A stretch of 64,000 nt of DNA from Chitinophaga sancti (GTDB lineage: Bacteria > Bacteroidota > Bacteroidia > Chitinophagales > Chitinophagaceae). The DNA lies in NCBI RefSeq assembly GCF_034087045.1, contig NZ_CP139247.1, forward strand, positions 186,001-250,000. The letters are read 5' to 3'. The position numbers were made by a program, and so were the translations under genes. The notes beneath the pieces are model-generated. The model saw only the letters and a program-made list of their open reading frames with translations. It made no database searches and was not told the DNA's origin. This document shows, one piece after another, positions 16,781 through 55,259 of the stretch (position 1 is the stretch's first letter; every line of letters starts with the position of its first letter).

Positions 16781-18644
16781 GTTGAGTAATTGACTGGGGT
16801 TTATTAGGTAAAAATCGTTCCAGGGTCTTCACAATGGCATTTCTATAGTCCTTCACATCCTCACTTGTCCAGGTTGACGGGGTATTGCCAGCATGATCAT
16901 AATACTTCAGGAAAACATTTCTCGTACACACCGGGATAAACACCCCCGCTTTATCTTTTTCTATAATAATTCTCCGTTTGGTAGTAAAAAGTGCATTGCC
17001 ATAAGCTCTATTGGTACCGGCATCCAATAATGCAAGGTTACCTATATTATCTTTCACAAGCTCATCATTCCTATCTTCCTTTGCAATTTTTGTAATCGCT
17101 GTAAATAAATTCTCAAACGGCTCCTTGCTAGCCTCATTATCCAGAAAGTTTCTAACCTTGAGTAGTAATGATTCATCAATATTTTCAAGGTCTACCAGGG
17201 CATTTTCCAGCCACTCTTTTCTGGCATCCTTAGTATGTAATTCATTTTCCGTGAGGGAATCTATATGCTCCACGTCCCACCCCTTGCCAATACTCACACC
17301 ATTATATGCTTCAAATGGGAATTTCAAAATAATACTGTTTTTCTTACATTGCTGTACAATACTTTCAATATTAAAAAGCAGTAATAGTTGCCGGACCTTT
17401 TCGTAGTCCTTATTGTAGGTAAGATCAAGGAAAATATCCTGGTTAGTTGGATCAAGGGCCCACTTGACAGTACTGAACAACGATCTTATTTTTTGCTCTA
17501 ACATATTTGTGATTGCCTCACGGCTGGGCAATTTTTCATTAACAATCGCCTTATAAATCCTGGATAGGGGCTCATTATTACACGCCACCCAAAATCCCAC
17601 ATAATGGTACCACACAGGGGTGTTATACCATTCCTGCACCTGCCTGAAGCATCCTATCACCACTCCCCAGATCCTCTTCATATCATCATAAGTCTTATTT
17701 TTATATAATAATTGATAAAAATAACGGAAGGTGGCATGATCATCTGTCCCAATAAGTTCGACTAATTGCGGGTCTTCCGCTATCGCTACTTCTTTTAAAA
17801 GATCCAGCAGCAATTCTATACGACAAGGTCTATTTGAAGGATACTTATTCAAGAAGGCCCAAAACAAGGGTTGTTGCAAAGCATTTTCAATTTCATCCCA
17901 TTCATTAGCAATCTCTAATTGACGAAGTCGGGCTAGCTCGTTTTTATCTGGTCCAAAATTGGTCTTTTGAAGAAATAATGCCTTAATAAGCTCCGCATTA
18001 CTAAGAGGGATTTTCCCAAGATTGATCCTCACAAAACTATCAATAGGATTTTCCATAGGATTCAATTCATACCAAATGATTTGGGCGACCCCTTCACTTT
18101 GTTGTGTTTGCTTATCATACACAAGCATGCGTAACATACTTTCTCTGGCATCCCTTGGTATATCCTGCTTTTCAAACCATAATCTAACAGCAGTATATGC
18201 CCTACTCATATGATACAGGTCAATATCATGTCCTACATTTTCTTCAATTCGCTGTAAAAACTGCTCGGATTCCATTCGGGTTTGATAATGTATACTATAC
18301 ACCTCTTTCTTATATTCACTCTTCAGTGTAGCCCCTCTCAAATGAGTTGCAATTAGATACTCCATTAATATCCTAATGGTTGTAAGCCTTTGCTGCCCAT
18401 CAACAACCTCCCACCCTGAAATTTCAGCATTAGTTTCATTACTCCAGGTAGACTTCTTCACGACAATGGGCTGTAAGCAATAAAACTCCTCAATGCTCTT
18501 TTTCTTTTTTGCGAAACTGAATAGATCCTCCAATAAATCATTGACATGCTGAGGGCTCCAACGATATCCTCTCTGGTAAGAAGGTATAAAGAATTGCTTT
18601 CCTAATAGGTCTGCTATTGAAAGCAACATAAGTGATTGTGCCAT
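16773..18644 (-). CDS. DUF262 + DUF1524 (GmrSD-like) restriction protein
   Basis: A 623-residue protein with an N-terminal DUF262 domain (FFIPSYQRGYRWSPQHVNDL from about residue 18; VVDGQQRLTTIRIL at 80-93) and a C-terminal DUF1524-like HNH nuclease region (KGWDVEHIDSL, then GNLALLDAGTNRAYGNALF and a terminal KRRII.EKD block). This is the complete GmrSD architecture in one chain. It is the first gene of a two-gene minus-strand operon; the second gene encodes another, larger DUF262 protein. The operon lies between small exported-peptide genes, and upstream is a long non-coding block (18649-19085) that is duplicated at 20210-20650. Confidence 0.9.
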   Translation of the reverse strand: MAQSLMLLSIADLLGKQFFIPSYQRGYRWSPQHVNDLLEDLFSFAKKKKSIEEFYCLQPIVVKKSTWSNETNAEISGWEVVDGQQRLTTIRILMEYLIATHLRGATLKSEYKKEVYSIHYQTRMESEQFLQRIEENVGHDIDLYHMSRAYTAVRLWFEKQDIPRDARESMLRMLVYDKQTQQSEGVAQIIWYELNPMENPIDSFVRINLGKIPLSNAELIKALFLQKTNFGPDKNELARLRQLEIANEWDEIENALQQPLFWAFLNKYPSNRPCRIELLLDLLKEVAIAEDPQLVELIGTDDHATFRYFYQLLYKNKTYDDMKRIWGVVIGCFRQVQEWYNTPVWYHYVGFWVACNNEPLSRIYKAIVNEKLPSREAITNMLEQKIRSLFSTVKWALDPTNQDIFLDLTYNKDYEKVRQLLLLFNIESIVQQCKKNSIILKFPFEAYNGVSIGKGWDVEHIDSLTENELHTKDARKEWLENALVDLENIDESLLLKVRNFLDNEASKEPFENLFTAITKIAKEDRNDELVKDNIGNLALLDAGTNRAYGNALFTTKRRIIIEKDKAGVFIPVCTRNVFLKYYDHAGNTPSTWTSEDVKDYRNAIVKTLERFLPNKPQSITQHA

Positions 18645-34550: not shown

Positions 34551-34753
34551 AAATGGGATAGTTAATGTGCTGGTGATTAAAATGATAATGGTATAATTTG
34601 GGGATTTGGACGCAATTATAGGGATAATAAAAGGTTATGGAGTTAATGCGATGTTAAGAGGGAATAGCAATCGATTTAAATGGGAAGAGTGTTTGTTTGA
34701 AGTAGTATTTTTTTTATATTTAGTTTATATTGTTAATCACATTATCTATACTT

Positions 34754-36901
34754 ATGGGGGATCACCTATACACTCAGTATTGGAGCGCTATCTTACCTGA
34801 ATTAATTCAATGTTTTGAAAGTAGCCCAACAATCATTCAAATACCTGTTTCTGGCCTCGAAGAATATGGAGATAGGAAAACCTATTATGCAAATTTCAGA
34901 ATTGTCTATGGACAGTTGGAGATTCCAAGAAATGGGTATGCGCAAGGCAGAGACTTGTACGAGGTATTAATAAATAATGATTTCTTCAAAGACTTGCTGA
35001 TGGATAAGATCATGCAGGTAACTATCACCCACAACTTATTATTGAAAATGGAAGTTATTCACGAAAACGCCCCAGACTTTTATACAGAAGAGGACTTTAT
35101 CAAATTAAAAAAATTAGCAGGGGTGAAAAAAGTGGAGGGTAATCAGGAGCACCAGGACTTATATAATGATCTAAAAGAAATTTATAAGAAAACGAAGTAC
35201 TGGGCGGAGGAAGTGAAAAAGAGGACCTTCCCGGAAATAGGGCATGTTCAGATTATTATGAAGCCTACTAATCAGAGTGGAAAATTTCAAAACTATCATT
35301 GGGCAAAAATCTATCCCAGTTCAACCTTCATTACTGACCGGCTTGCATTCACTGTCGGAATTTCTTCTGAACATGGATTTGTTATGAAGATTGATACCAT
35401 CTTACTGGAACCAAATGATCCACGATTGAAAATATATGAAAATGTGCGAGGAGATTTTATGCAGTCAAAATTAGTAAAGATTGTTAATGAGGAAGAGATG
35501 TTGGATAAAGGTTGGGAATACCTAATAGATCTAACCTATACTTTCTTTCAAGATTTAGAGCAGGACTATTTCGATATAATTAAGCTATACCATAAACATA
35601 CCCTGGAACAATTGGGCGCTACTGACGTCTCCGTCCCACACGCTCTAAATACCATTTTATATGGACCTCCGGGTACCGGCAAGACTTATCATACTATCAA
35701 TAAAGCTGTCAGTATCGCCAACCCGGGTTTCAGGTCTATTGATAGACAGGATATAAAAGCAGAATTTGCACGGCTACAAAGAGAAGGCCAGATTGAATTT
35801 ATTACTTTCCACCAAAACCTCAGTTATGAGGACTTTATTGAAGGCATTAAGCCCAAAGTTGATGGGGAGAAACTAGTATATGAAATTGAGGATGGGATCT
35901 TTAAGAAAATAAGTGATAAAGCGAGATTTATTGCTGGCAACTTTGAAACTGTGATTGAAAAGTTTAAAAAAGATATATCTCAGGCAGATGGCATGCCTGC
36001 TGCTACCATACAAGGTAGTTCTTCCACTTTCGATATCACCTTCAGGGGTACAGGCGTATTCTACGTTCAACCGCATGATACTGAAAAAGAAGATGCCTGG
36101 TACCCAGTAAACATCAATAACATCCGGAAAGCATTTGAAACGGAGAATTACATAGGACTCTATAATCCGACATACATCCGCGGCACGATCAGCCACCTTG
36201 TAAAAAATTATGGTCTTAAAAAAGGAAACGAGGATATTACTAATAAAAAGAACTATGTACTTGTAATCGATGAAATCAATCGTGGGAATGTATCCCAGAT
36301 ATTCGGGGAGCTAATCACCCTAATTGAAGATAACAAACGATTTGAGGAAGAAGAGTCTCTTGTTGTTACCTTACCATATAGTAAAACAGAATTCTCTGTC
36401 CCAAACAATCTCTATATCATTGGCACAATGAATACTGCAGACCGCAGTGTAGAGGCATTGGACAATGCGCTTCGAAGAAGGTTTTGCTTTGAAGAAATGT
36501 CGCCAGATGAATCTCTTATTGGAAAATCATTGGAGGAATTAGATTTACAAGCACTACTAAAAACGATTAACAATAGACTGGAAGCGCTATTGACAAAGGA
36601 TCATTTAATTGGTCATGCATGGTTGATGGGTATTGAAGACTTGTATGATCTGCAAAAGGCGTTTAAAAATAAGATCCTCCCTCTTTTACAAGAGTATTTC
36701 TTTAATGACTATGCTAAAATTGGCCTTGTATTAGGGGATACTTTTATATCCTTTAAAAGCGTCAGCAGAAACCTCTTCGCAAATTTTGCAAAAGGAGAGG
36801 AAATTGCGGGGGACTTCACAGATAGGATCATATATACCTTAAAAGATCCGATGGAGATGGATTTGGATGATTTCAAGTCAATTTATAGCCATGGCAAATA
36901 A
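34754..36901 (+). CDS. mcrB: McrB-type AAA+ GTPase of a type IV restriction system
   Basis: Start chosen at ATG 34754 (715 residues); a TTG eight codons upstream is less likely. The N-terminal ~290 residues are a divergent sensor region, expected to recognise modified DNA. The motor domain has Walker A GPPGTGKT (304-311), the McrB-specific FHQNLSYEDFIEGIKP, Walker B region VLVIDEINRG (D506, E507), and the McrB signature MNTADRS (559-565), followed by LDNALRRRF. McrB hydrolyses GTP to translocate and activates McrC. The stop codon overlaps the start of mcrC (ATGGCAAATAA), showing tight coupling. Confidence 0.93.
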   Translation: MGDHLYTQYWSAILPELIQCFESSPTIIQIPVSGLEEYGDRKTYYANFRIVYGQLEIPRNGYAQGRDLYEVLINNDFFKDLLMDKIMQVTITHNLLLKMEVIHENAPDFYTEEDFIKLKKLAGVKKVEGNQEHQDLYNDLKEIYKKTKYWAEEVKKRTFPEIGHVQIIMKPTNQSGKFQNYHWAKIYPSSTFITDRLAFTVGISSEHGFVMKIDTILLEPNDPRLKIYENVRGDFMQSKLVKIVNEEEMLDKGWEYLIDLTYTFFQDLEQDYFDIIKLYHKHTLEQLGATDVSVPHALNTILYGPPGTGKTYHTINKAVSIANPGFRSIDRQDIKAEFARLQREGQIEFITFHQNLSYEDFIEGIKPKVDGEKLVYEIEDGIFKKISDKARFIAGNFETVIEKFKKDISQADGMPAATIQGSSSTFDITFRGTGVFYVQPHDTEKEDAWYPVNINNIRKAFETENYIGLYNPTYIRGTISHLVKNYGLKKGNEDITNKKNYVLVIDEINRGNVSQIFGELITLIEDNKRFEEEESLVVTLPYSKTEFSVPNNLYIIGTMNTADRSVEALDNALRRRFCFEEMSPDESLIGKSLEELDLQALLKTINNRLEALLTKDHLIGHAWLMGIEDLYDLQKAFKNKILPLLQEYFFNDYAKIGLVLGDTFISFKSVSRNLFANFAKGEEIAGDFTDRIIYTLKDPMEMDLDDFKSIYSHGK

Positions 36902-38207
36902 GAACATCATCCGGGTTGCAGAATATGAAAAACTGTATTATGATAATGACAAGCCTTTCAAGAAGAAACATTGGGAGGCATTATGTTTATATCATGCCAG
37001 AAATGAAATCGAACATTTCCAAATTATTGATCGGGGAATTAGGTTTATCAACTATGTAGGTGGTTTACAAGCAGGCGAACTTACTATCGAAATATTGCCT
37101 AAAACCGATAGGCATTTGACAACTGCTGCAAATTGTAATATACAGCACCTCGAAAACGATGATGCCAACGCTAGGGCTAACTGGCATGAGGTGTTATTGT
37201 CTATGTTAAAGGAATGTAGATTCTTGCAGGTACATCATTCAGATAAAGCCAATTTAAACTTACGGTCTAATTCCATACTGGATATTTATATTCAGCTATT
37301 TTTGGAACAGACGGAAAAGATTCTACATGAAGGACTTACAAAGCAATATCGCAAAGAAGAAGGGAATAGACTGGCGATGAAAGGGCAGTTATTATTTTCC
37401 AAAAACATTAGCCAAAATTTAGTCCATCAAGAGCGTTTCTATGTAAGGCATACGGTATATAATGTGCAGAATAAGTACAACCAGCTGCTTTATATGACAT
37501 TACTATTAATATCCAAATTATGTAATGATTCATTAATAATAGATAAGGCACACCGGTTATTGCTTCATTTTCCTGAAATGGCAACTTCTAAAGTAACTGA
37601 ACAAACCTTTTCCAGCTTGGCTTTTGATCGTAAGACGGAAAGGTATAAGGAAGCATTGCTTATCAGTAAGCTATTACTGTTAAACTACCGGCCAGGGATT
37701 AATGGAGGAAGCGAACAGGTGATCGCGATTTTGTTTGATATGAATATGCTTTGGGAAGAGTTTATATATCATAGGATACAGAAAGCGGCGGCCGGTTATG
37801 CACATATGAGAGTGTATAGGCAGAGTAAGAAGGATTTCTGGTATCATAATGAATATAGGTCTTATAAGAAGGTTAAACCTGATATTGTGGTGGAGATGGG
37901 TGAGGAGATTTATATTTTGGATACGAAGTGGAAGGTAGTGGATGGTGATATGCCAGGGGATGATGATTTGAAGCAATTGTTTGTGTATAATTTACTTTGG
38001 AATGCCAGGCAGTCATTTTTAGTGTATCCAGGGAGTTTTAATAAGGTGGAGGGATCATATGTGCATTTTCCATTATCGGCTGGGGAGAAGAGGCAGGGAG
38101 ATGATTTTTATAGTCATTGCGGGCTGGTGTTTGTGAATCCGGTGGCGGAGGGGGGTGGGTTGTCAGGGAGGATTGGGGAGGAGTTGTTGGGGGTGTTAAA
38201 AGAATAA
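36891..38207 (+). CDS. mcrC: McrC-type nuclease subunit of a type IV restriction system
   Basis: Start chosen at ATG 36891 (438 residues), overlapping the end of mcrB by 11 bp. The N-terminal half contacts McrB. The C-terminal half has the PD-(D/E)xK nuclease centre: KPDIVVEMGEEIYILDTKWK with Asp331, Asp344 and Lys346, followed by DDDLKQLFVYN. Complete by length and motifs. The last ~170 bp are strikingly G-rich on the coding strand (see 38150-38193). Confidence 0.93.
   Translation: MANKNIIRVAEYEKLYYDNDKPFKKKHWEALCLYHARNEIEHFQIIDRGIRFINYVGGLQAGELTIEILPKTDRHLTTAANCNIQHLENDDANARANWHEVLLSMLKECRFLQVHHSDKANLNLRSNSILDIYIQLFLEQTEKILHEGLTKQYRKEEGNRLAMKGQLLFSKNISQNLVHQERFYVRHTVYNVQNKYNQLLYMTLLLISKLCNDSLIIDKAHRLLLHFPEMATSKVTEQTFSSLAFDRKTERYKEALLISKLLLLNYRPGINGGSEQVIAILFDMNMLWEEFIYHRIQKAAAGYAHMRVYRQSKKDFWYHNEYRSYKKVKPDIVVEMGEEIYILDTKWKVVDGDMPGDDDLKQLFVYNLLWNARQSFLVYPGSFNKVEGSYVHFPLSAGEKRQGDDFYSHCGLVFVNPVAEGGGLSGRIGEELLGVLKE
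38150..38193 (+). other. potential G-quadruplex motif at the 3' end of mcrC
   Basis: G runs at 38150-38155, 38157-38159, 38166-38168 and 38175-38178 are separated by loops of 1, 6 and 6 nt, which satisfies the canonical four-run rule; a fifth run lies at 38189-38193. It is on the coding strand, so it would be present in the mcrC mRNA. Confidence 0.55.
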
Positions 38208-40982: not shown

Positions 40983-43115
40983 TTAAATCTTGTTGAACGG
41001 TAACTTTATTTTAAATGTTGCACCTTGAGGCTTGAACTCACTTTCAACCAATTCTACGGATCCTTTTAGGGCTTGTATTCTTTTTTCAACAATATATAAT
41101 CCCAAACCTGCACCACCTTTATCTGCCGTCCTTGTATTGTATAACTCAAAAATCCATTTTTCATCCCCTTTAGATACGCCAACACCATTGTCGGAGAAGT
41201 ATAATGTAAAATTATCGCTATCCAAATATCCAGAACATTTGATCTGTTTGTTCGTATTACCCTCTAAGGCTTTAATAGAATTAGAAATTAGATTTTGAAA
41301 TATATCCTCAAAAATTTTCTTATTAAAATTAATGACAAAATCATCCTTGATTTCAACTTCTACAATAATTCCCTCTGATCTAAATGCTTGTGAATATGTG
41401 TGAAGCAACAAATTTTCTATTAGCTCTTTAACACTAAAATCTTCAAAATTCCCACCAGAACTCGCATAGCTTAACATGAAATCAGTCACCTTTAACAAAA
41501 CATCCATTTCATCATATATCAAAGACGCATATTGTTTAAAATAAACGTCATATTCAGGATTCGGAAAATTTAGTTTAATAAATTCTGCCATCCTTTTTAT
41601 TTTCCCAAGCGACGTTCTAATTGCATGTGAAATGTTAGATGCATAATCTTGTAGAGACATCAAACTTAAATAAATATTCTCCTTTCTTGTGACATCCGCT
41701 TGATATTTCTTTTGCTCACTTATACTTTGGGATATACTTTTACTTAGTTCTGCTGCTTGCTCTTTTAAAGGTTGAAGGACTGCCTTGAGCTCAGGTTTCT
41801 CTTTATCTATTTCTTGTTGAATTTTATCAATCGCATGCGAAAAAGACTTAACTTCTTGTCCCGCTTTATGCAGTTCCTTCTCAACAGCAGATCGTTTAAA
41901 TTCTCTCTCATATATTTTCACTGCACCAAAAACATCTATCTGCTGCATAAGAAATTCCTTCAAATGTCTATATTCGGGTGTATCTATAAAATCCTGTCTA
42001 TTAGTTCCATCTATGATTTGAGGATTATCATTCATAGTAATATCTACGATACCAATTATTTCCCTTGTGCTTACTCTATCAAATGTCTGCCTCCATCTCC
42101 TTTTATCTATCCCTAGAATATCTCTCCTTTTATCAGGATCAGATTCATATTCTGCAAATGGAGTAGTAATTACCGAATCTCGGTAAATTTTCACACCATC
42201 AATTCTTGTTTCATCGTTTTTATATACTGCATTAAATTTTCGTTTAGCTCCTTCATTAAAATAGAAAAACTTTGCTTTAATTGGACCAAAATCTCTTATA
42301 TCAATCAACTCCTTTAAAATCTTTCCAGCTTCTTTATTAAATACCAAGGTTTCCTGCTTTCCATTTGCTGAATCGTATTCAATTTCTGCATGGTGAGAAT
42401 AAAATCTAAATGGATCCGGTTTTACTAATTTTTCCTTAAACTCAATAAAATCGTTTGATCCGATATATATATCAAAAGGAGGATTAAGCGGATAAAATGG
42501 AGATTTTAATATTGATAACTCCCTTGTCAATCTTTCAAGATCTGCTTTCGACCAATTATCCCTAATCTGTGAAATTATTAATTTGGTACCGTGTTCATCA
42601 GGGGGTCCATCTGTAAAAAAGTAATGATTATCTACTTCAGTAAATAAGGACAACTGGTCACCTGCTGTTGCCTTTGTCGACAATTCCTCATATTCATCCC
42701 ATTTAATTTCTACATTCAACCATTTAGATTCTCCTACTTGCTTGGTCTTTATTACTAATCGCTCTCCTAACTTATCTACAGCAAATCGACCAATTCCCTT
42801 TTCCCCTACAAACTTCCTATTGAATGGCGGGTCAGAATACAATTTTGCTCTTTTGCTATTAGTACCAACAACCATCCATTTATTGTCAATGTCATTATAT
42901 GACATACCTATACCGTTGTCTGATATTATGATTTGTTTATCATCGGAGTCTTTTGTAATATTCAGGAATTCAACATTTACTTTTGTAGAGTTAGCATCAT
43001 AACAGTTTTTCACCAATTCGAATACAGCCGTTACCCTATCGGTAATCAACTCTCTTCCTAACAAGCGAAAAGCATTTACATCGAAGCGCCATCTTAGGGT
43101 GTCCTTTTTATTCAT
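40983..43115 (-). CDS. double-GHKL sensor histidine kinase (Hsp90/MORC-like ATPase + HisKA-HATPase)
   Basis: A 710-residue cytosolic protein with two GHKL ATPase domains. The N-terminal one is of Hsp90/MutL/MORC type: AVFELVKNCYDAN (Glu33, Asn37), IISDNGIGM (64-71) and GEKGIGRFA (104-112). Then come an S5-like region (to ~390), a long coiled coil (about 395-480) and a histidine-kinase core: H-box ISHAIRTSLGKI with His497, N-box FQNLISNSIKAL (606-617), G1 FSDNGVGV (about 640-647) and G2 GGAGLGLYI (667-675). No membrane segment, so the signal is intracellular. First gene of the kinase-receiver-protease operon. Confidence 0.9.
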   Translation of the reverse strand: MNKKDTLRWRFDVNAFRLLGRELITDRVTAVFELVKNCYDANSTKVNVEFLNITKDSDDKQIIISDNGIGMSYNDIDNKWMVVGTNSKRAKLYSDPPFNRKFVGEKGIGRFAVDKLGERLVIKTKQVGESKWLNVEIKWDEYEELSTKATAGDQLSLFTEVDNHYFFTDGPPDEHGTKLIISQIRDNWSKADLERLTRELSILKSPFYPLNPPFDIYIGSNDFIEFKEKLVKPDPFRFYSHHAEIEYDSANGKQETLVFNKEAGKILKELIDIRDFGPIKAKFFYFNEGAKRKFNAVYKNDETRIDGVKIYRDSVITTPFAEYESDPDKRRDILGIDKRRWRQTFDRVSTREIIGIVDITMNDNPQIIDGTNRQDFIDTPEYRHLKEFLMQQIDVFGAVKIYEREFKRSAVEKELHKAGQEVKSFSHAIDKIQQEIDKEKPELKAVLQPLKEQAAELSKSISQSISEQKKYQADVTRKENIYLSLMSLQDYASNISHAIRTSLGKIKRMAEFIKLNFPNPEYDVYFKQYASLIYDEMDVLLKVTDFMLSYASSGGNFEDFSVKELIENLLLHTYSQAFRSEGIIVEVEIKDDFVINFNKKIFEDIFQNLISNSIKALEGNTNKQIKCSGYLDSDNFTLYFSDNGVGVSKGDEKWIFELYNTRTADKGGAGLGLYIVEKRIQALKGSVELVESEFKPQGATFKIKLPFNKI

Positions 43116-43503: not shown

Positions 43504-44349
43504 TTACACACTCGCATTTACAAATACCTTCCACCTTTCGGCCAAAGCCTGTCTATCCGGTCTCCTTCCATCATTCCTTGGCTTTAATACCATTCCATCT
43601 AAATATTCATACTCACTCTCCATTAATTTACTCCCTATCCGAACTTTCAAAGTATCAGGTTCTATCCCTATTAAATTAGTATCAAACAATATATGTAAAT
43701 CTGCCCTCAACAACAATCCATTCTTAGACTGGTTATTCCCATTTAATTTATGCGGTTCAATATGGCAGCCAATCAATACCTCCGCTATACTAGATCCCGT
43801 TATACAACACTGCCCATCATATATTTGCATAAGCCCATCCTTCAATTTCTTCTGTCCATCCCTTACACGCTTAAGAACAGCCACCACTTTTTTTATCACA
43901 TCATCTGGAGCTTCCCCTTTCAAAATAAAATCCTTGATGACCTCATCTGTCTCTATTTCCTCCACAGGTTTCATCAAACTCCACTCAATCAATACAGGCT
44001 TTTTATTCTCATATTTAACGGGAACTCCCAATCCTCGATACAAAAACTTGCTCCTATCCTCCTCTCTGGTAAAGATATGCACTGGTACCTTTCCACTTAG
44101 CATCTCCTTAATAGACTTCTGACCTATATGAGACTTACTCTTTCCGTACCAAACTAATAAATCTTTCCCACCCCAATGATTGTCATAATCGTGACCAGTC
44201 CTTCCCGGCACACCAATATTGGCAAAAACATAGTAACTCCCATCGAATTTAGTATACCCAGTGTGCCAAGGACCTTTTCGCTTTTTTTCAGGTACAGACA
44301 GGAGCTTATAAAGATCCTCCTTATCGTATAGCTCTTTGTATTTTAGCAT
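43504..44349 (-). CDS. DUF3427-like domain + HNH endonuclease
   Basis: A 281-residue protein. The N-terminal ~120 residues resemble DUF3427 (GPWHTGYTKFDGSYYVFANI, LLVWYGKSKSHIG, PVHIFTREEDRSKFLYRGLG), a domain found in restriction-associated helicases and nucleases. The C-terminal part is an HNH nuclease: CCITGSSIAEVLIGCHIEPH (His196, His200), KNGLLLRADLHILFD (Asn210, His219). This is the arrangement of stand-alone modification-dependent or foreign-DNA nucleases. It lies between the kinase operon and the permease gene as a single gene. Confidence 0.82.
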   Translation of the reverse strand: MLKYKELYDKEDLYKLLSVPEKKRKGPWHTGYTKFDGSYYVFANIGVPGRTGHDYDNHWGGKDLLVWYGKSKSHIGQKSIKEMLSGKVPVHIFTREEDRSKFLYRGLGVPVKYENKKPVLIEWSLMKPVEEIETDEVIKDFILKGEAPDDVIKKVVAVLKRVRDGQKKLKDGLMQIYDGQCCITGSSIAEVLIGCHIEPHKLNGNNQSKNGLLLRADLHILFDTNLIGIEPDTLKVRIGSKLMESEYEYLDGMVLKPRNDGRRPDRQALAERWKVFVNASV

Positions 44350-46932: not shown

Positions 46933-46950
46933 TTGTCCTTTCAAGGACAA
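46933..46950. promoter_or_regulatory. palindromic operator (C-box) of the restriction operon
   Basis: TTGTCCTTTCAAGGACAA is a perfect inverted repeat (two 8-bp arms, 2-bp spacer), 18 bp before the start codon of the XRE-type controller gene. Controller proteins of restriction-modification systems bind such boxes upstream of their own gene, so autoregulation is the natural reading. Confidence 0.8.
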
Positions 46951-46968
46951 GACCAAATGTAGTAAAGT

Positions 46969-47265
46969 ATGCTGGGCGAAAAACTTAAAGAATTAAGAGA
47001 AGCTAGGGGACTCATGCAACGTCAAGTAGCTGCGGAGCTTGACATCGATACTGCTTACGTCAGCAAAATGGAAAGTAATGAAAAGCCGGTAAGTAGAACC
47101 AATCTTACCAAACTGGCCGTCTATCTGGAAGTAGACGAAAATAAACTGCTGATTCTTTGGCTGGCAGATAAACTATGTAATATTGCCAAAGGAGAAGCGG
47201 TTGCCATTGAAGCGCTGGAAGCTGCGCACAGCGAATTAATTAGTCAGTTGAACAAAGGCGTGTAA
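46969..47265 (+). CDS. XRE-family controller protein
   Basis: A 98-residue helix-turn-helix protein of Cro/CI (XRE) type: MLGEKLKELREARGLMQRQV AAELDIDTAYVSKMESNEKP at 1-40. Small XRE proteins at the head of restriction-modification operons act as controllers that delay nuclease expression until methylation is complete. It sits immediately after the palindromic box at 46933 and 33 bp before the first methyltransferase gene. Confidence 0.9.
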   Translation: MLGEKLKELREARGLMQRQVAAELDIDTAYVSKMESNEKPVSRTNLTKLAVYLEVDENKLLILWLADKLCNIAKGEAVAIEALEAAHSELISQLNKGV

Positions 47266-47298
47266 AAACGGTAGATATAATAGAAATTTATAAACTTA

Positions 47299-48198
47299 AT
47301 GAGAACTATAGATTTATTTTCAGGATGTGGCGGAATGTCTTTAGGATTTCAAAATGCGGGGGCTGAGATTTTAGCGGCTTATGATAACTGGAAGCCTGCG
47401 ATTGACGTGTACGAACAAAACTTCGATCATCCGATTCATAATGTAGACCTTTCTTCAGAAGAAGCTATTACTGATATAAGAAATTTGAATCCTGATCTAA
47501 TTGTCGGCGGTCCTCCTTGTCAGGACTTTTCTAGCGCCGGTCATAGAAATGAGAAATTAGGACGCGCGGACTTGACAGTAGCTTTTGCAAATATCGTTTC
47601 AGAAGTACGGCCAAACTATTTTGTAATGGAGAACGTATCCACCATTACTAAGAGCCCTATCCTTCCTAAAATAGTCTCCACATTGAAAGGGGCCGGTTAC
47701 GGACTGACTCAAATTACCTTAGACGCTAGCTTCTGCGGCGTACCCCAAAAAAGAAAGCGATTCTTTTTAATTGGAATACAAGGCGCAGAAGATAATGTAT
47801 TATACGAGCCGCTGACCAAAAAGCTGGGCAAAAAACCCATGACTATCTTCGATTACCTGGGCAATAGCCTTGGATTGGAATATTACTTCAGGGTGCCAAG
47901 ATCTTATTCCAGACGCGGAATATTTAGCATTCATGAACCTTCAATGACAATTAGAGGGGTGGACAGACCCGTTCCTAAAGGATATCCCGGACACCCGAAC
48001 GATCCTATCGCGGTAACTGAAGATCTGAGAGGGCTGACCGCAATCGAGCGAAGCTATCTTCAAACCTTTCCAACAACCTTTAACTTCACTGGATCAAAAA
48101 CTAATTTGAATCAAATGATCGGTAATGCGGTTCCTGTAAAACTCGCGGAATTCATCGCCACTTCGTTATTAGAATATCATCAAAATTTAGGTAGATGA
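47299..48198 (+). CDS. C5-cytosine DNA methyltransferase (first of a pair)
   Basis: A 299-residue m5C methyltransferase with motif I DLFSGCGGMSLGF (5-17), catalytic motif IV GGPPCQDFSSAG (70-81, Cys74), motif VI MENV (110-113), motif VIII QKRKRFFLIG and motif X NQMIGNAVP near the C-terminus. The target recognition region between motifs VIII and IX is short, so the enzyme is compact. Its stop overlaps the start of the second methyltransferase by 4 bp (ATGA). The two are aligned residue for residue over the first 110 positions and clearly arose by duplication. Confidence 0.95.
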   Translation: MRTIDLFSGCGGMSLGFQNAGAEILAAYDNWKPAIDVYEQNFDHPIHNVDLSSEEAITDIRNLNPDLIVGGPPCQDFSSAGHRNEKLGRADLTVAFANIVSEVRPNYFVMENVSTITKSPILPKIVSTLKGAGYGLTQITLDASFCGVPQKRKRFFLIGIQGAEDNVLYEPLTKKLGKKPMTIFDYLGNSLGLEYYFRVPRSYSRRGIFSIHEPSMTIRGVDRPVPKGYPGHPNDPIAVTEDLRGLTAIERSYLQTFPTTFNFTGSKTNLNQMIGNAVPVKLAEFIATSLLEYHQNLGR

Positions 48199-49091
48199 GG
48201 GCAATTGATTTATTCTGTGGCTGCGGAGGAATGAGTTTAGGATTTCAAAAGGCCGGGTTCGAGATGATTGCTGCTTATGACAACTGGAAGGCAGCCGTAG
48301 AAACATATAATGAAAATTTTGACCACGCCGCTCATTTAAGAGATATCACGGATCCGGAACTGGTCAATGAGCTGAGGGCAATGGGGGCTGATATCATCAT
48401 AGGAGGCCCTCCCTGCCAGGATTTCAGTATTGCAGGGAAAGGGAATCACAACGGAGAAAGGGCCAACTTAACGGCTACCTTTTCTGAAATAGTATGTACC
48501 ATTAGGCCTACATACTTTGTCATGGAAAACGTATACAATATTGAAAAAATGGCTATATTGGAAAAAGCTAAACGTAACTTTAAAGAAGCTGGCTATGGGT
48601 TGACTTATAAAGTATTTGACGCCAGCTTAATGGGAGTACCCCAGGCAAGAAAGCGCTTTTTCATGATAGGTAAACTAAACGCCGATGACAATTTCATATT
48701 GGATGTGTTAGATTCCCAGTTGAGTAAGAAGCCGATGACTGTGCATGAATATTTAGGAGATCTGTTAGAGACCGAATACTATTATATGCATCCCAGAAGT
48801 TATGCTAGAAGAGCCGTATTTAGTGTTCATGAACCTAGTTCGACAATTCGTGGGGTAAATAGACCCATCCCACAGAACTATCAGCCTCACCCAGCTGATA
48901 AAACAGCGGATATCAAAAAAGTGAAATCACTCTCGACCATTGAACGTAGTTTGATACAAACTTTCCCCCGATCGTTCAAATGGAATAGAAGTAAAACAGA
49001 AAACGAACAGTTGATCGGGAACGCCGTTCCTGTATCAATGGCAAACTATATAGCGAAAAGTATATTGAAATTTGACGAAACAGCTGATTAA
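48195..49091 (+). CDS. C5-cytosine DNA methyltransferase (second of a pair)
   Basis: A 298-residue paralogue of the preceding enzyme with all key motifs intact: DLFCGCGGMSLGF, GGPPCQDFSIAG (Cys74), VMENV (109-113), QARKRFFMIG and EQLIGNAVP. The target recognition region differs from its sister, so the pair may methylate the two strands of an asymmetric site, or two different sites. Translationally coupled to the first gene and 6 bp upstream of the MmeI-like gene. Confidence 0.95.
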   Translation: MRAIDLFCGCGGMSLGFQKAGFEMIAAYDNWKAAVETYNENFDHAAHLRDITDPELVNELRAMGADIIIGGPPCQDFSIAGKGNHNGERANLTATFSEIVCTIRPTYFVMENVYNIEKMAILEKAKRNFKEAGYGLTYKVFDASLMGVPQARKRFFMIGKLNADDNFILDVLDSQLSKKPMTVHEYLGDLLETEYYYMHPRSYARRAVFSVHEPSSTIRGVNRPIPQNYQPHPADKTADIKKVKSLSTIERSLIQTFPRSFKWNRSKTENEQLIGNAVPVSMANYIAKSILKFDETAD

Positions 49092-49097
49092 TATGCT

Positions 49098-51704
49098 ATG
49101 ATCGACATCTATAGTCAGATAGAATCTAAGCTTAAAGCCCTGAGATATAATACGAGCCCGCTTGAGTTCATATTAGACTTTCTTCGGGCTTTACAGTTTC
49201 CCCAATCAACAATCGACAAGTTAATCTCAGGCTACGAAGCCGCTGCGAATCCACAAGACGAACACATCGTGAATGGGAAGTACCTATTCAAATACATTCC
49301 ACATCACCACTTATCGGAGACGCTCAACAACTTGTTAACCAAAGGGAAAATCAAAACCGCAGTCACATTCGTCTTTATCTTTAATTCGACGAATACGTTG
49401 GTTTTCTTAAAAGAGTCCAAAGACTATGTGATTACTAGTCATGCGGAGCTATTTAAACAACTTGAACTACTATTGCCCTTAGCAGGTCTATCTGCGCCGA
49501 AGGTAAAGTTAATCAATAAGGATGTCAACGTCGCCGAAATAGCTGGAGGACTATACAATGCTTTGAGACTGTGCAATAAAAATCAAGACGACGGTTTGCA
49601 GCTATTCTTGTTGCAATTGTTAGTGATGTCATTTGTTAATTCCTTTGATAAAGAAGCTAATAGGTCGATCGAGAAGTACTACAAACACATTTCAAGCGAA
49701 TCAGGTGAAAAGATCACACAATATACCTTTGACCTGCTGCGATACGTGAAAGGCGAAGATCAATCAAAATTGCCCACATTCATAGGGTCTATACCAACCA
49801 TCAAGGTTGATCTATTTGATACGATTAAAGAATTCACAATCGATAAAAAAGCAGCAGGATTGATCGTTTCCCTCCTGTGTATTGAATGGAATGATCTCAG
49901 TTCCGATACGATTGGCAGTTTGATTTATAAGTTCGTTGGCGGTAGTGAAACGTCAGGACTTCATTATACCTCCACCGCGAATGTGAATAAGATATTGAAC
50001 CCATTATTACTGGACGACCTATACCTTACACTTTCTAAATCCAAGGAGAACGAAGACGCTTTACAAGCATTAGTCAAAAGAATCAACGCTATCCAAATAT
50101 TAGATCCGACCAACGGACCAGGTTGTTACTTAAACATTGCTTTTAAAGAGTTATTCACATTTCTATATAATGTGGAGATTGAGTTCGAGAAATTCTCGAC
50201 TAAAAGTGGTGTGACCATCCTTGATTCATTAAAAAATTTCCATGGGATCATCAGTAACCTCTTCGGCGTTCATCTGTCAAGGTTTACGTTGTCGGTGACT
50301 TATTTTCAATACTTCCGGGACAAATATAGCAGCGAGGAATTTAAGACCATTTACAACTCCCCACATATCATTCACGGGAATCCGCTTCAGTGGAGTTGGG
50401 AAAAGGTATGCCCGAATGAGGGAGCGACTTATATTGTCGGTAGTCCGGTATTTAAGGGCGCCAAAAAATTGAGTGACAAAGAAAAGGCGGATCTTAAAGT
50501 CGCTTTTAACGGATCAGATAATATTTCCTCGCTAGACTACTGCTCCGCCTGGTTATACAAAGCATCACAATACATAGGTCACACTTCGTCAAAGGCGGCA
50601 TTTGCTGTTACGAACAGTTTAACACAAGGCGAACAGGTAAGCGTATTATGGCCCAAAATATTTGATAACGGGTGTGTGATAGATTTTGGATATACGTCTT
50701 TCAAGTGGAAGAATAGCATTTCTCAGAATACAGGTGTTACCGTAGTGATTATTGGGCTCAGCTCAGCTGAGAACGGGGCTACACATCGATTGTATTCAGG
50801 AGCGAAAGTATATACAACGCCGATAATAGGTCCCTACCTCAATATTGGTTCTGTAACCATCATTCAAAGGAGAAAAAAATGTTTGGTAACACACTATCCT
50901 AAATTATCAAAAGGGAATATGCCCTATGAAGAAGGCCACTTACTTCTTAACAAAAAAGAATTGATGGCTATATTACAAGAAGATCCTTCCGCCAAAAGAT
51001 TTATCAAAAAAATAGTCGGTTCTGATGAATTTATTAATTCAATCGGCAGATGGTGTATCTGGGTAAAAGATGAGGACTTAGCGGATGCACTTCAAGTAGT
51101 ACCTATAAGAAGACAGATAGATGCAGTAAGAGATTACAGAAGCAAAAGCTCTGATAAAAATGTGCAAAGAATGGCTGGAAGGCCACATCAATTTCGGGAG
51201 GTGTTATTTACGACCACTCAATCTATCGTAGTCCCCTCAGTATCTTCCGAAAATAGAGTGTATATCCCGATGGGCTTTATTGGTCCTGATACGATCGTGT
51301 CGAATCTGGCATTTATCGTGTATGATTGCGAGCCATGGATATTGGGAATATTGACTTCCAAAATGCACTTGATCTGGATTAAAACAGTATGCGGCCAATT
51401 AGAAACCAGGATTCGATATAGCTCCGAACTTGGCTATAATAACTTCCCCTTCCCGAAGTTGAGCGAAGACAAGAAAGAAAAATTATCCAAACTTGTATTT
51501 AACATCCTTAGAATAAGGGAATGCTACTCTGAAATGACGCTCGGGAAAATGTATGAAGAGGAGAACATGCCTGGTGATTTGAGAGTAGTACACCAGGAAT
51601 TAGATTTATTCGTCGACAAATGTTATAGCGACGAACCTTTTGAAAGTGAAACCGATCGAATCACCTGTCTGTTCAATTTATATGAAGGCATTGTTACTAA
51701 GTAA
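49098..51704 (+). CDS. MmeI-like DNA methyltransferase homologue with degraded catalytic motifs
   Basis: An 868-residue protein with the layout of the MmeI/type IIG family: helical spacer (GLHYTSTANVNKILNPLLLD at 287-306), Rossmann region, TNSLTQGEQVSVLWP (505-519), YTSFKWKNS (532-540) and a C-terminal target-recognition part (LTSKMHLIWIKTVCGQLETR ... YNNFPFPKL). The SAM motif I is LDPTNGPG (335-342) instead of DPACGSG-like, and motif IV is VGSPVF (447-452) instead of NPPF/NPPY. The methyl transfer step is therefore probably lost and the protein may serve as a DNA-recognition subunit. No N-terminal PD-(D/E)xK motif was recognised. It lies between active C5 methyltransferases and a helicase. 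Confidence 0.8.
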   Translation: MIDIYSQIESKLKALRYNTSPLEFILDFLRALQFPQSTIDKLISGYEAAANPQDEHIVNGKYLFKYIPHHHLSETLNNLLTKGKIKTAVTFVFIFNSTNTLVFLKESKDYVITSHAELFKQLELLLPLAGLSAPKVKLINKDVNVAEIAGGLYNALRLCNKNQDDGLQLFLLQLLVMSFVNSFDKEANRSIEKYYKHISSESGEKITQYTFDLLRYVKGEDQSKLPTFIGSIPTIKVDLFDTIKEFTIDKKAAGLIVSLLCIEWNDLSSDTIGSLIYKFVGGSETSGLHYTSTANVNKILNPLLLDDLYLTLSKSKENEDALQALVKRINAIQILDPTNGPGCYLNIAFKELFTFLYNVEIEFEKFSTKSGVTILDSLKNFHGIISNLFGVHLSRFTLSVTYFQYFRDKYSSEEFKTIYNSPHIIHGNPLQWSWEKVCPNEGATYIVGSPVFKGAKKLSDKEKADLKVAFNGSDNISSLDYCSAWLYKASQYIGHTSSKAAFAVTNSLTQGEQVSVLWPKIFDNGCVIDFGYTSFKWKNSISQNTGVTVVIIGLSSAENGATHRLYSGAKVYTTPIIGPYLNIGSVTIIQRRKKCLVTHYPKLSKGNMPYEEGHLLLNKKELMAILQEDPSAKRFIKKIVGSDEFINSIGRWCIWVKDEDLADALQVVPIRRQIDAVRDYRSKSSDKNVQRMAGRPHQFREVLFTTTQSIVVPSVSSENRVYIPMGFIGPDTIVSNLAFIVYDCEPWILGILTSKMHLIWIKTVCGQLETRIRYSSELGYNNFPFPKLSEDKKEKLSKLVFNILRIRECYSEMTLGKMYEEENMPGDLRVVHQELDLFVDKCYSDEPFESETDRITCLFNLYEGIVTK

Positions 51705-51719
51705 AGAAACTAGGCAAAA

Positions 51720-53645
51720 ATGAATATTATAAACGTTCAATATAATCAAACTGGCAAAAGCCAGTTGACCGACAATAATGGGATGCGTGAAATGCAGCAA
51801 AGAGCTTATGCGGCTAATCAATCACAATATATTCTACTAAAGTCGCCACCGGCATCCGGTAAAAGCAGGGCGTTAATGTTTATCGGTTTGGAGAAATTGA
51901 AAAATCAAAATATAAAAAAGGTAATTGTAGCAGTTCCAGAAAGATCAATCGCTAAATCCTTCTCTGCTAACAAATTATCCCTACAAGGGTTTCATTCAGA
52001 TTGGGAGCCGAATGAAAGATTCAATTTGTGTTCGCCAGGCGGAGAAAGTAGGAAAGTAGAGGCGTTCAAAGAATTCATGCGACTGGAAGATGAGAAAATT
52101 CTGATCTGTACACATTCGACCCTTCGCTTTGCATTTGACAAAATTGGATCTGAAAGTTTTAATAATTGTCTGTTAGCCATCGATGAGTTTCACCATGTCT
52201 CCGCCGATTATGAAAATAAGCTGGGTGAGTTGTTGCGAGACATTATGCGAAACACCAATGCACATATCATCGCGATGACGGGCTCCTACTTCCGTGGAGA
52301 TTCCATCCCAGTATTGATGCCTGAAGACGAAATCAAATTCACAAAAGTAACCTACAACTACTATGAGCAATTAGACGGGTATAAGTACATGAAGTCCTTA
52401 GGGATCGGCTTTCACTTTTACCAGGAGAAATACATCGGCGCCCTCAAATATGTACTCGACCTGAATAAGAAAACAATCATACATATCCCTAGCGTGAATT
52501 CCGGAGAGTCTACAAAAGAGAAACTCAGGGAAGTGGATCAAATATTCGACATCATCGGTACAGTGGAGCACATCGACGCCGAGAACAATATATTCCATCT
52601 AAGAACTGCGGACGGACGCCTCCTGAAAGTAGCGGACCTGGTCAATGACGATCCGATGTTAAGATCCAAAACGATCAATTACTTAAGGAACATCAATAAT
52701 ATTGAGGATATCGATATTATACTTGCGCTAGGAATGGCGAAAGAAGGTTTCGATTGGCCTTATTGTGAACATGCATTGACCATCGGCTACAGAGGTTCAT
52801 TGACTGAAATCATACAAATCATTGGCAGATGTACACGTGACAGTATGAATAAGGAACATGCACAATTTACCAATCTAATTGCCGAACCTGATGCAGAAAG
52901 CGATGAGATTACTAACAGCGTCAATAATATACTTAAGGCGATAACCGCTTCGTTATTGATGGAAGAAGTGCTAGCTCCTAAATTCAAATTCAATCCGAAA
53001 ATAAATAAGTTAGAACACCAAGATGAGCACACCATCAATATAAAGGGCTTGAATGGGGATTTGACGGATAATGTAAAGAACATTATCATGAACGACCTTA
53101 CAGACTTAAAAGCACGGATATTGCAGGATAGTGAAATCTCAAAGGCCCTGCCTGGCAATGTGCCTGCTGAAACAATCAACAAGGTGATGATTCCAAAAAT
53201 CATCCGTGAGGTATACCCAGAATTGGATGAGGAGGAAAACACTACCTTAAGCGAGTATATAGTTGCACAAACTGTATTAAATACATCGTCTATATCACAA
53301 GTTGGAAATAAGAAATTCATTCAACTCGCCGATAAATTTATAAACGTCGATGAACTGGACATAGATCTGATTATGTCAGTCAATCCATTCCAAAATGCAT
53401 TCGAGGTATTGTCAAAATCACTGACACCTAAAGTATTTAAAGCGATACAACAATGCATCAGGGCGCTAAAAATTAAAATGACAGATGATGAGGCTGTTTA
53501 TTTATGGCCTAAGATCAATGAGTTCGTCCGCATTACGGGGAAACAACCGAATATCGATAGTTTAGATCCAGCAGAACGACGCATGGCGGAAGCGATCATT
53601 TATTTAAAGCAGTTAAAATTAAACGCGACCAATGCCCAAAAGTAA
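51720..53645 (+). CDS. SF2 helicase/translocase of the restriction operon
   Basis: A 641-residue superfamily 2 ATPase: Walker A SPPASGKSR (42-50), motif II DEFH (155-158), motif III MTGSYFRG (187-194), motif V region ALGMAKEGFDW and motif VI QIIGRCTRD (366-374). About 260 C-terminal residues have no recognised domain, and no nuclease motif is present, so cleavage would need a partner. Spacing of 15 bp from the MmeI-like gene and a 14-bp overlap with the GIY-YIG gene indicate one complex or pathway. Confidence 0.9.
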   Translation: MNIINVQYNQTGKSQLTDNNGMREMQQRAYAANQSQYILLKSPPASGKSRALMFIGLEKLKNQNIKKVIVAVPERSIAKSFSANKLSLQGFHSDWEPNERFNLCSPGGESRKVEAFKEFMRLEDEKILICTHSTLRFAFDKIGSESFNNCLLAIDEFHHVSADYENKLGELLRDIMRNTNAHIIAMTGSYFRGDSIPVLMPEDEIKFTKVTYNYYEQLDGYKYMKSLGIGFHFYQEKYIGALKYVLDLNKKTIIHIPSVNSGESTKEKLREVDQIFDIIGTVEHIDAENNIFHLRTADGRLLKVADLVNDDPMLRSKTINYLRNINNIEDIDIILALGMAKEGFDWPYCEHALTIGYRGSLTEIIQIIGRCTRDSMNKEHAQFTNLIAEPDAESDEITNSVNNILKAITASLLMEEVLAPKFKFNPKINKLEHQDEHTINIKGLNGDLTDNVKNIIMNDLTDLKARILQDSEISKALPGNVPAETINKVMIPKIIREVYPELDEEENTTLSEYIVAQTVLNTSSISQVGNKKFIQLADKFINVDELDIDLIMSVNPFQNAFEVLSKSLTPKVFKAIQQCIRALKIKMTDDEAVYLWPKINEFVRITGKQPNIDSLDPAERRMAEAIIYLKQLKLNATNAQK

Positions 53646-54816
53646 CGATAAGATATCCACCATATTTGACAACGATCCTTTTGGACTGTTGAACGCTAAC
53701 GCAGCGAATAACAGTGAGAGGAGAGAAGATAATAGACTAATCGATTCATTCGAAGAAATCAGCCAGTTCTACAGTGAACATGAGCGAGAGCCTGATACAC
53801 GAAACATAGTTGAATTCCAGCTTAAGTCCAGACTGGATGCGATTCGTTCCAATCCAAACAAAGTACGTTTTTTAAAAAAATATGACTTTTATGGCCTATT
53901 GGCTGGGGCTGGTGTAAAAGACGTAGGTGTGAATGATATATTAGAAAATGACAGTCTCGGCATTTTGGATGAAGAGGACGAATCGGATATTTTTAAATTA
54001 AAGTTTGCCAAGCCGTCAGAAAGGATAAAGCCTGATTACTTGTCTAGAAGAAAAGCTTGCAAGGATTTTGATTTGTATGAAGGGATGTTTAAAACAATTC
54101 ATGGAGATCTGAAATCGGGGCAGCGGAGATTGATAGAATTTAATGAGAAATCTCTACTACCTGGCCGCTTCTTCATATTGAACGGGGTGACGTTTTTCCT
54201 GAAAACCATTGACGGTAAGACAGAAATGAATGATTTTAAAAGCGGTGGTAGAAATCGATTTGACGGTAATACGTTATGCATATTTGATAATGGGACAGAG
54301 TCCGACATGCTTTATAGGTCTCTGGTCAAGGCGATGAATTTGGACGGGTTCATGGTCAGCGAACCAGTAAAACGAGTTAAAAATCAGGTAGAGGAAGTTA
54401 ATGACATTTTCAATGGTTATCTATATGTGCTAAAATCCAAATCGACCAATCCGCATGTTTCCTCAATTGAGAATTTATATAAAATTGGCTATACGACAAA
54501 TAGCGTAACACAAAGGATCAACAATGCGAAGAATGAAGCGACTTATCTTTTTTCCGATGTGGAAGTGATAGCGACATATCGCTGTTTGAATATAAAAACT
54601 GCGGCGATCGAGAATTTAATACATGTTTTTTTTCAGGCAGCGAGATTGGAAGTTGAATTGAATGACATACAAGGGAATTTATATATACCGAAGGAATGGT
54701 TTTCAATTCCACTGAAGGTAATAGTAACCGCCATAGAATTGATAATTAGTAATGAGTTAGAGAAATATTTCTTTGAGCCGAAAATTCAGGAGATCGTCAA
54801 GCGGCGATTGGAATAA
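53632..54816 (+). CDS. GIY-YIG nuclease (T5orf172/MUG113 type) with long N-terminal extension
   Basis: A 394-residue protein. Its C-terminal ~110 residues hold a GIY-YIG fold of T5orf172 type: GYLYVLKS (262-269), LYKIGYT (282-288), Arg295 and the metal-binding Glu327 in AAIENLIH (with His331). The N-terminal ~255 residues (EEISQFYSEHEREPDTRNIV..., YYGLLAGAG-like region) recur in this nuclease subgroup but have no known function. It overlaps the helicase gene by 14 bp and is the best candidate for the cutting subunit of the system. Confidence 0.87.
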   Translation: MPKSNDKISTIFDNDPFGLLNANAANNSERREDNRLIDSFEEISQFYSEHEREPDTRNIVEFQLKSRLDAIRSNPNKVRFLKKYDFYGLLAGAGVKDVGVNDILENDSLGILDEEDESDIFKLKFAKPSERIKPDYLSRRKACKDFDLYEGMFKTIHGDLKSGQRRLIEFNEKSLLPGRFFILNGVTFFLKTIDGKTEMNDFKSGGRNRFDGNTLCIFDNGTESDMLYRSLVKAMNLDGFMVSEPVKRVKNQVEEVNDIFNGYLYVLKSKSTNPHVSSIENLYKIGYTTNSVTQRINNAKNEATYLFSDVEVIATYRCLNIKTAAIENLIHVFFQAARLEVELNDIQGNLYIPKEWFSIPLKVIVTAIELIISNELEKYFFEPKIQEIVKRRLE

Positions 54817-54830
54817 TTAAATAGTAGATT

Positions 54831-55259
54831 ATGGCAGATGTATTTGATAAGGAGAAGCGGGCTGCGATAATGTCTAAGGTAAAACAAAAGGATACTCAAC
54901 CCGAATTAATAGTAAGAAAATTTTTATTTGCAAACGGCTTTCGATTCAGGAAAAATGTGACGACATTACCTGGATCGCCGGATATTGTGTTACCGAAATA
55001 TAAGACGGCGATATTTGTGAACGGTTGTTTTTGGCATGGGCATAAGGACTGTAGACATTCGAATCTTCCCAGTAGTAATAGAGAGTATTGGGAGAAGAAA
55101 GTTACAAGGAATATAGCAAGGGATGATACAAATGTTGCGAAGTTGGAGAGTCTTGGTTGGAGGGTGATCATCATTTGGACATGTGAGATTGGAAAAAAGA
55201 GTCAGAAGGAGGCTTTTTTAAATGATTTACTAAATAAGTTAAGAAACGATCATTCATAA
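54831..55259 (+). CDS. vsr: very short patch repair endonuclease
   Basis: A 142-residue Vsr endonuclease, which nicks next to T:G mismatches that arise when m5C deaminates. Motifs: SKVKQKDTQPELIVRKFLF (15-33), GSPDIVLPKYKTAIFVNGCF (48-67) with the catalytic Asp51, WHGH (68-71) with His69, and LESLGWRVIIIWTCE. Complete by length. Its presence after two C5 methyltransferases is the usual pairing and supports that they are active. Last gene of the operon. Confidence 0.95.
   Translation: MADVFDKEKRAAIMSKVKQKDTQPELIVRKFLFANGFRFRKNVTTLPGSPDIVLPKYKTAIFVNGCFWHGHKDCRHSNLPSSNREYWEKKVTRNIARDDTNVAKLESLGWRVIIIWTCEIGKKSQKEAFLNDLLNKLRNDHS

Follow-up and report, generated by a model that had tools for sequence, protein, structure and literature searches.

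DnmA of Bacillus subtilis is an MmeI-like protein without a restriction endonuclease (REase) motif that places N6-methyladenine (m6A) at GACGAG, and a Type I-like system has been suggested for DnmA, YeeB and YeeC (PMC7261158, PMC9973331). In a 64,000-nucleotide stretch of contig NZ_CP139247.1 of Chitinophaga sancti, hereafter the window, an MmeI-like protein, a superfamily 2 (SF2) helicase and a T5orf172/GIY-YIG protein are encoded in the same order and on the same strand as this trio, YeeB and YeeC being likened by their architecture; in contrast to DnmA, the motifs of the MmeI-like protein are degraded and two C5-cytosine methyltransferase genes are added. From sequence comparison we consider it likely that the locus encodes a DnmA-YeeB-YeeC-type restriction-modification system whose MmeI-like protein has ceded self-protection to the C5 pair. 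The original prediction for this DNA had placed the locus among none of the known kinds, which could not be upheld because the three-gene core shares the published DnmA-YeeB-YeeC architecture (PMC9973331, PMC7261158); what appears to be new is a variant clade with C5 genes and a decayed MmeI-like methyltransferase. B. subtilis was positive for MmeI_TRD, and a Bacillaceae plasmid (NZ_CP095745) carries the same three annotated genes, its helicase being 53% identical.

Other described systems share part of this build. MmeI (Type IIL) has methyltransferase, target recognition (TRD) and C-terminal domains and recognition residues that can be aligned (PMC4833311; PDB 5hr4), whereas the window protein gives no match to MmeI_N, has degraded catalytic motifs and has its presumed cutting parts in separate genes. 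CglI and NgoAVII resemble the locus in its presumed working, with a separate methyltransferase, DEAD-family ATPase and nuclease, dependence on nucleoside triphosphates and an asymmetric site (PMC4267653, PMC5737866), and the separate ATPase and nuclease subunits of CglI restrict via ATP-driven movement on DNA (PMC5737866). Two methyltransferases forming 5-methylcytosine (5mC) serve the non-palindromic GACGC in HgaI/MhoVI, and in M. hominis a cassette of this type lies with an XRE gene in one operon; compared by description, a dedicated REase is found there, in contrast with the MmeI-like reader, helicase and GIY-YIG protein here (PMC12376442). Type ISP enzymes unite nuclease, helicase, methyltransferase and TRD in one polypeptide, whereas the window has separate genes. 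No MmeI-like subunit is known in CglI or NgoAVII, whose nuclease belongs to another family. The DrmMI and DrmMII methyltransferase models of DISARM in PADLOC matched window proteins; neither DrmA, DrmB or DrmC nor any Hsd model of classic Type I systems was among the matches listed (the best 25 of 63 for the C5 proteins), and the helicase matched the general ResIII model. As to BREX (PglZ, BrxC with PglX), the only matches were weak ones of the MmeI-like protein to PglX (E 0.003 to 0.05). No description of a C5 pair with an MmeI-like/helicase/GIY-YIG core was found in the open PMC literature, judged by title or abstract start.

Decay of the methyltransferase motifs in loci with C5 genes

C5 genes of the window's kind were present in 12 of 62 mapped loci, which include L090 as a copy of L026, and in two (L105 and L108) of 43 loci from viral contigs (L-numbers denote mapped loci, G-numbers genomes and P-numbers database relatives; coordinates without such a number are positions in the window). 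These 14 C5 loci, the window included, span Bacteroidota, Bacillota, Campylobacterota, Cyanobacteriota and the two viral contigs. Of the 105 mapped loci, 68 entered the comparison of motifs and identities (14 with C5 genes and 54 without); the requirement was an MmeI-like open reading frame (ORF) of at least 780 amino acids and a helicase ORF of at least 600. Manual exclusion removed L026, L061, L085, L090, L122 and L132, which were split, cut, truncated or duplicate; some of the 68 rows are near copies.

The MmeI-like protein of the window aligned to MmeI (PDB 5hr4) over residues 106-864 with 380 bits and matched MmeI_Mtase, MmeI_TRD and MmeI_C, with no Pfam match to MmeI_N at E<=1. Its catalytic stretches read DPTNGPGCYL (motif I) and GSPVF (motif IV), so that intact m6A motifs were not found and the degraded state claimed at the outset was confirmed. 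The same contrast separated the two classes of loci. Motif I was DPACGSGNFL in all 54 loci where no C5 gene was found and in none of the 14 with C5 genes, and motif IV was NPPY, NPPF or NPPW in the same 54 loci; in 41 of these, at least 2 kb of sequence is available on either side, upstream of the MmeI-like gene as well as downstream of the nuclease gene. Among the C5 loci motif IV was NPPY once (L006), NPTY in three, NPSY in two, NTQY in two and SPxF in six, NPP[YFW] thus being lost in 13 of 14. Two database relatives, P0127 and P0128, combine an intact DPACGSGNFL with NPLY in motif IV and the recognition code of the C5 class, and may be intermediates.

Conservation of the recognition domain and the predicted site

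Conservation of two domains of the MmeI-like protein was reversed in the presence of C5 genes. Whenever two C5 loci were paired (91 pairs), the TRD showed higher identity than the methyltransferase (MTase) domain; without C5 this held for 29 of 1431 pairs. When pairs were matched for helicase identity, the mean values reversed in all six bands containing C5 pairs (90 of the 91; the remaining pair is more alike than the top band); in the band 0.60-0.65, for instance, the means were 0.36 for MTase and 0.48 for TRD with C5, and 0.54 and 0.40, respectively, without. Because the C5 loci belong to a single clade and the pairs lack independence, we present the reversal as a pattern and not as a probability. 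It is what would be expected if self-methylation were handed to separate enzymes, since this frees the MTase domain and locks the DNA reader.

The residues that set MmeI specificity (PMC4833311) could be located in the window protein as M645, S751, N773, L774, E806, R808 and R810 in MmeI numbering. Five of them (M645, N773, E806, R808 and R810) were invariant in the 14 C5 loci and variable in the others; residue 774 was Leu in 11 and Asn in three C5 loci, and residue 751 was Ser, Cys or Ala in place of Glu. Among 31 database relatives, M645, N773 and the E-R-R triplet at 806/808/810 occurred together in 16 of 17 proteins lacking NPP (the window protein among them) and in three of 14 with NPP, while E-R-R taken alone was present in nine of those 14. 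By the MmeI rules M645 would favour A at base 2, L774 with R810 would favour G at base 4, and at base 6 E806 with R808 would favour C. C is also a possible choice at base 3, although residue 751 is not Glu, and base 5 is open, for which reasons the resulting site, nA(C)GnC, stays a prediction; by analogy it would fit the CG-centred sites of C5 systems such as GACGC for HgaI (PMC12376442). In MmeI the A774L change left only G:C recognised at base 4, and a 5mC-modified sequence was no longer cleaved (PMC4833311), which offers a physical way for 5mC to block the predicted reader of the C5 loci.

The C5 pair and its origin

In trees, the first and second C5 proteins formed two groups that are retained as a pair. 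Each group carries distinct conserved TRD stretches. In L105 (12625-14421) and L108 (13153-15018) both are fused into a protein of about 600 amino acids, encoded on the opposite strand after the nuclease gene. When six genomes of other members were searched with the first methyltransferase (M1), five yielded exactly two matches apiece and the genome of L035, a locus without C5, yielded none. In 340 genomes of the phylum, two besides the genome of the window had one relative each, 52% identical, and these two were not among the nine helicase-positive genomes described below. Over the 6 + 340 genomes searched, two M1 matches per genome were thus seen only where the core was present. C5 genes annotated as HindV-like also occur on plasmids; the HindV site is GRCGYC, likewise CG-centred. 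C5 matches in L099, L112, L127 and L134 scored 48 to 120, against at least 490 for members of the pair, and were regarded as unrelated and not counted.

The C5 loci grouped together in a helicase tree of 55 rows (12 of them together with L002, whose contig stops ahead of where the C5 pair would lie; support 100/100) and in one of 27 rows (all 14; 100/100). They also formed one clade in a tree of the N-terminal and MTase parts of the MmeI-like protein, and the nuclease tree joined L105 and L108 with the other C5 loci (support 91, not starred). On the 27-row helicase tree the classes of motif IV required at least five changes, and NPP versus its absence at least two. A quick helicase tree of 86 rows had separated L105 and L108 widely from the remaining C5 loci, as in two independent handovers; this was rejected because the thinned helicase, the nuclease and the MmeI-like trees unite them. 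We take the 86-row placement to be long-branch trouble, and these trees argue for a single origin.

Distribution of the core genes

The claim that the genes travel together was borne out. In a sample of 395 genomes of the phylum, helicase (E<=1e-40) and nuclease (E<=1e-10) were found in an identical set of nine, the genome of the window included, and in all nine they lay on one strand at most 0.9 kb apart by match coordinates. An MmeI-like gene was matched in eight of them, the match in G071 being a fragment only and G238 having none. Thirty-six loci emerged when a species-genome collection was pattern-scanned using the nuclease alignment, and in 34 of them a helicase ORF or fragment immediately preceded the nuclease gene (the others being L036, cut at its start, and L037). 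MmeI-like ORFs or fragments were seen in 27 of the 36; among the nine without, L012, L018, L022, L027 and L036 have no more than about 2.6 kb between the locus start and the beginning of the core, and L009, L028, L034 and L037 have more.

In samples drawn around known members the helicase was found in 1/398, 4/150 and 8/146 genomes, each count including the central genome, and it occurred in seven of 147 genomes of the organism's own family, its own genome included. Plasmids gave a helicase tblastn match in 263 of 72,556 records (153 over at least 80% of the query), whereas phage records gave two in 50,697, both partial. Plasmid matches came most often from Acinetobacter (74), Pseudosulfitobacter (33) and Ligilactobacillus (18), and in the two plasmid loci whose annotation was examined, L138 and L139, the methyltransferase, helicase and GIY-YIG genes are consecutive. 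Some loci without the C5 pair carry Fic, Schlafen AlbA_2, Shedu, RhuM or HTH with M78 genes between the MmeI-like and helicase genes (ten ORFs, by Pfam; e.g., L029:4017-5258, L019:6879-7991, L021:4989-6431 and L031:6942-7955). Cargo genes sit inside Type I loci, and the inserted Shedu, Fic, AlbA_2 and RhuM genes may be likened to them. The nuclease ORF reaches 575 amino acids in L010 (9992-11716) and L024 (9986-11710), compared with the usual 395 or so.

Locus layout, regulator and neighbouring genes

The features of the locus are collected in Table 1. All seven ORFs were found where the original prediction had put them, on the plus strand and in the families claimed (by ORF positions and Pfam), and the ATGA overlap joining the two C5 genes was verified; the supposed 14 bp gap between helicase and nuclease genes turned out to be an overlap of 14 bases. 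From M1 to Vsr, neighbouring genes overlap or are separated by 6 to 15 bp.

Table 1. Features of the C. sancti locus (positions in the 64,000-nucleotide window; aa, amino acids; HTH, helix-turn-helix).
Feature	Position	Strand	Basis
8+8 bp perfect inverted repeat, candidate operator of the HTH protein	46933..46950		TTGTCCTT-tc-AAGGACAA
XRE/Cro-type HTH regulator, 98 aa	46969..47265	+	Pfam HTH_3 9.9e-12
C5-cytosine methyltransferase, "first" orthologue group, 299 aa	47299..48198	+	DNA_methylase 1.5e-68; trees
C5-cytosine methyltransferase, "second" orthologue group, 298 aa	48195..49091	+	DNA_methylase 4.6e-68; trees
MmeI/DnmA-like protein, 868 aa, predicted DNA reader	49098..51704	+	MmeI_TRD 2.6e-75, MmeI_Mtase 8.4e-58
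Target recognition domain of the MmeI-like protein, residues 587-788	50856..51461	+	MmeI_TRD; alignable MmeI residues
SF2 DEAD/DEAH helicase, YeeB-like position, 641 aa	51720..53645	+	DEAD 4.8e-10
GIY-YIG protein with C-terminal T5orf172 domain, YeeC-like position, 394 aa	53632..54816	+	T5orf172 5e-13
Vsr mismatch endonuclease, 142 aa, optional member	54831..55259	+	Vsr 4e-34; TIGR00632 142.8 bits (cut-off 97.85)

In the helicase the P-loop, DEFHH and GRCTRDS motifs were all found; its motifs were conserved in 21 aligned rows, as were GIY-YIG-type residues in 18 aligned rows of the nuclease. Predicted structures were of low quality (mean predicted local distance difference test score 73 for the nuclease and 67 for the helicase). 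With the nuclease model as query, the PDB fold search found nothing at E<=0.001, and profile searches of PDB sequences were likewise without a match for helicase or nuclease.

The unit that recurs is C5-C5-MmeI-like-helicase-GIY, and the description of the locus as a seven-gene unit was not supported because Vsr directly follows the nuclease gene in two of 14 C5 loci (the window and L007) and an HTH gene precedes the C5 genes in eight of the 13 with sequence there. These eight are the window, L006, L007, L008, L013, L024, L105 and L108; none was seen in L003, L005, L011 and L015, only a piece is present in L010, and L004, cut at a contig end with one C5 gene visible, was left out of the count. 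The DNA of L005 ends 206 bases past the nuclease gene, too early to tell on Vsr. In L108 Vsr lies upstream of the core, and in the partial locus L009 it follows the nuclease gene; in L079 and L134, both without the C5 pair, it is about 5 kb away and further away, respectively. The "C-box" described upstream of the regulator does contain one 8+8 inverted repeat; at least one such repeat also arose in 109 of 5000 mononucleotide shuffles of the 103 upstream bases, and we therefore treat it as an operator candidate only. The HTH protein probably tunes expression.

The window resembles a defence island with modification-dependent systems (14372-18644, 34730-38207 and 43504-44349), comprising two GmrSD_N genes, an AAA_5 plus McrBC pair and an HNH/DUF3427 protein. 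A McrBC-type system near one that makes 5mC poses a question of compatibility, and it should spare the sites of the C5 pair. A 710-residue protein with two HATPase-type domains, encoded on the minus strand near the HNH gene (40983-43115), is a possible further defence gene.

Discussion

The original prediction had the C5 pair as guard, the helicase as motor and the GIY-YIG protein as nuclease, and the comparisons favour this as a reading of the locus. The C5 pair would mark both strands of one non-palindromic site and so protect it. The MmeI-like protein, with its decayed methyltransferase centre and retained TRD, would serve as a specificity subunit that engages the site only in the absence of 5mC and recruits the helicase and nuclease; these would then move along DNA with the use of ATP and cut it, as their families and the suggested Type I-like nature of DnmA-YeeB-YeeC (PMC7261158, PMC9973331) lead us to infer. 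Vsr, where found, would by its family repair the T:G mismatches that arise from deamination of 5mC.

Several observations weigh against this reading. L006 has the C5 pair together with GNPPY and a near-normal DPACGAGNFL, and therefore its protein may still methylate; the GxG of motif I survives in the window, and its protein may therefore still bind S-adenosylmethionine. Sequence on one side is shorter than 2 kb in 13 of the 54 loci used for comparison, and a C5 pair could lie outside. The recognition code is not confined to the C5 class, since Leu774 also occurs without C5 in four of 31 loci, with further cases in the viral set, and E-R-R without C5 in four of 31 (two rows left out) and six of 27 (copies included), and three C5 loci have Asn at 774. 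A single origin means that the link with C5 genes represents one acquisition followed by decay and not many independent cases. Finally, the B. subtilis core gave no phage or transformation phenotype (PMC9973331, PMC7261158).

This last result touches another proposal, namely that the locus is a relic that does not restrict, or that it acts in gene regulation as put forward for DnmA in B. subtilis, where deletion of yeeB or yeeC was described as having no effect with three phages (PMC9973331). We give it a very slim chance: conservation extends to the motifs of the helicase and to the GIY-YIG-type residues, a locked TRD would be difficult to account for if no nuclease were at work, and loss of the homologues in V. 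crassostreae raised sensitivity to some phages, as cited in PMC9973331. The persistence of NPPY in L006 and of GxG in most C5 loci would also suit an MmeI-like protein that is still an m6A methyltransferase with unusual motifs, the C5 pair, together with Vsr, being a separate HgaI-like or HindV-like unit alongside; the single C5 relatives in two of 340 genomes and the HindV-like plasmid genes point the same way. We consider this highly improbable in view of motifs that are decayed with C5 and intact without, of the tight spacing from M1 to Vsr with its ATGA overlap, and of paired M1 matches restricted to genomes with the core.

It is also unlikely that the nuclease does its own site recognition, so that the C5 pair would protect the site of the GIY-YIG protein, and the MmeI-like protein and helicase would form an accessory loader with no role in specificity. 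GIY-YIG restriction enzymes with their own specificity exist, and the N-terminal 260 residues of the nuclease, which had no Pfam match, could be counted in favour of such a role; the part conserved among C5 loci, however, is the TRD of the MmeI-like protein, in all 91 pairs, and loci without C5 combine a related nuclease with an intact-looking MmeI-like methyltransferase. Returning to the handover of self-protection to the C5 pair, we give about even chances to a fuller scenario in which a self-modifying Type I/IIL-like machine of mutable specificity came to rely on separate guards: an acquired C5 pair would protect, the dead adenine methyltransferase would sense 5mC via a bulky residue 774, the code would have been frozen near 5'-nA(C)GnC-3' with both strands C5-marked, and L006 would be a surviving intermediate.

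The family would offer a natural division of labour in restriction-modification, reading and protecting being united in one protein in most relatives and separate in one clade. The question why Type I/IIL specificities drift freely while those of Type II are locked becomes testable, since a single gene family contains both states, with the conservation of the domains flipping between them. A probably dead methyltransferase that may act as a 5mC-sensitive DNA reader is at hand with many ordinary relatives as controls.

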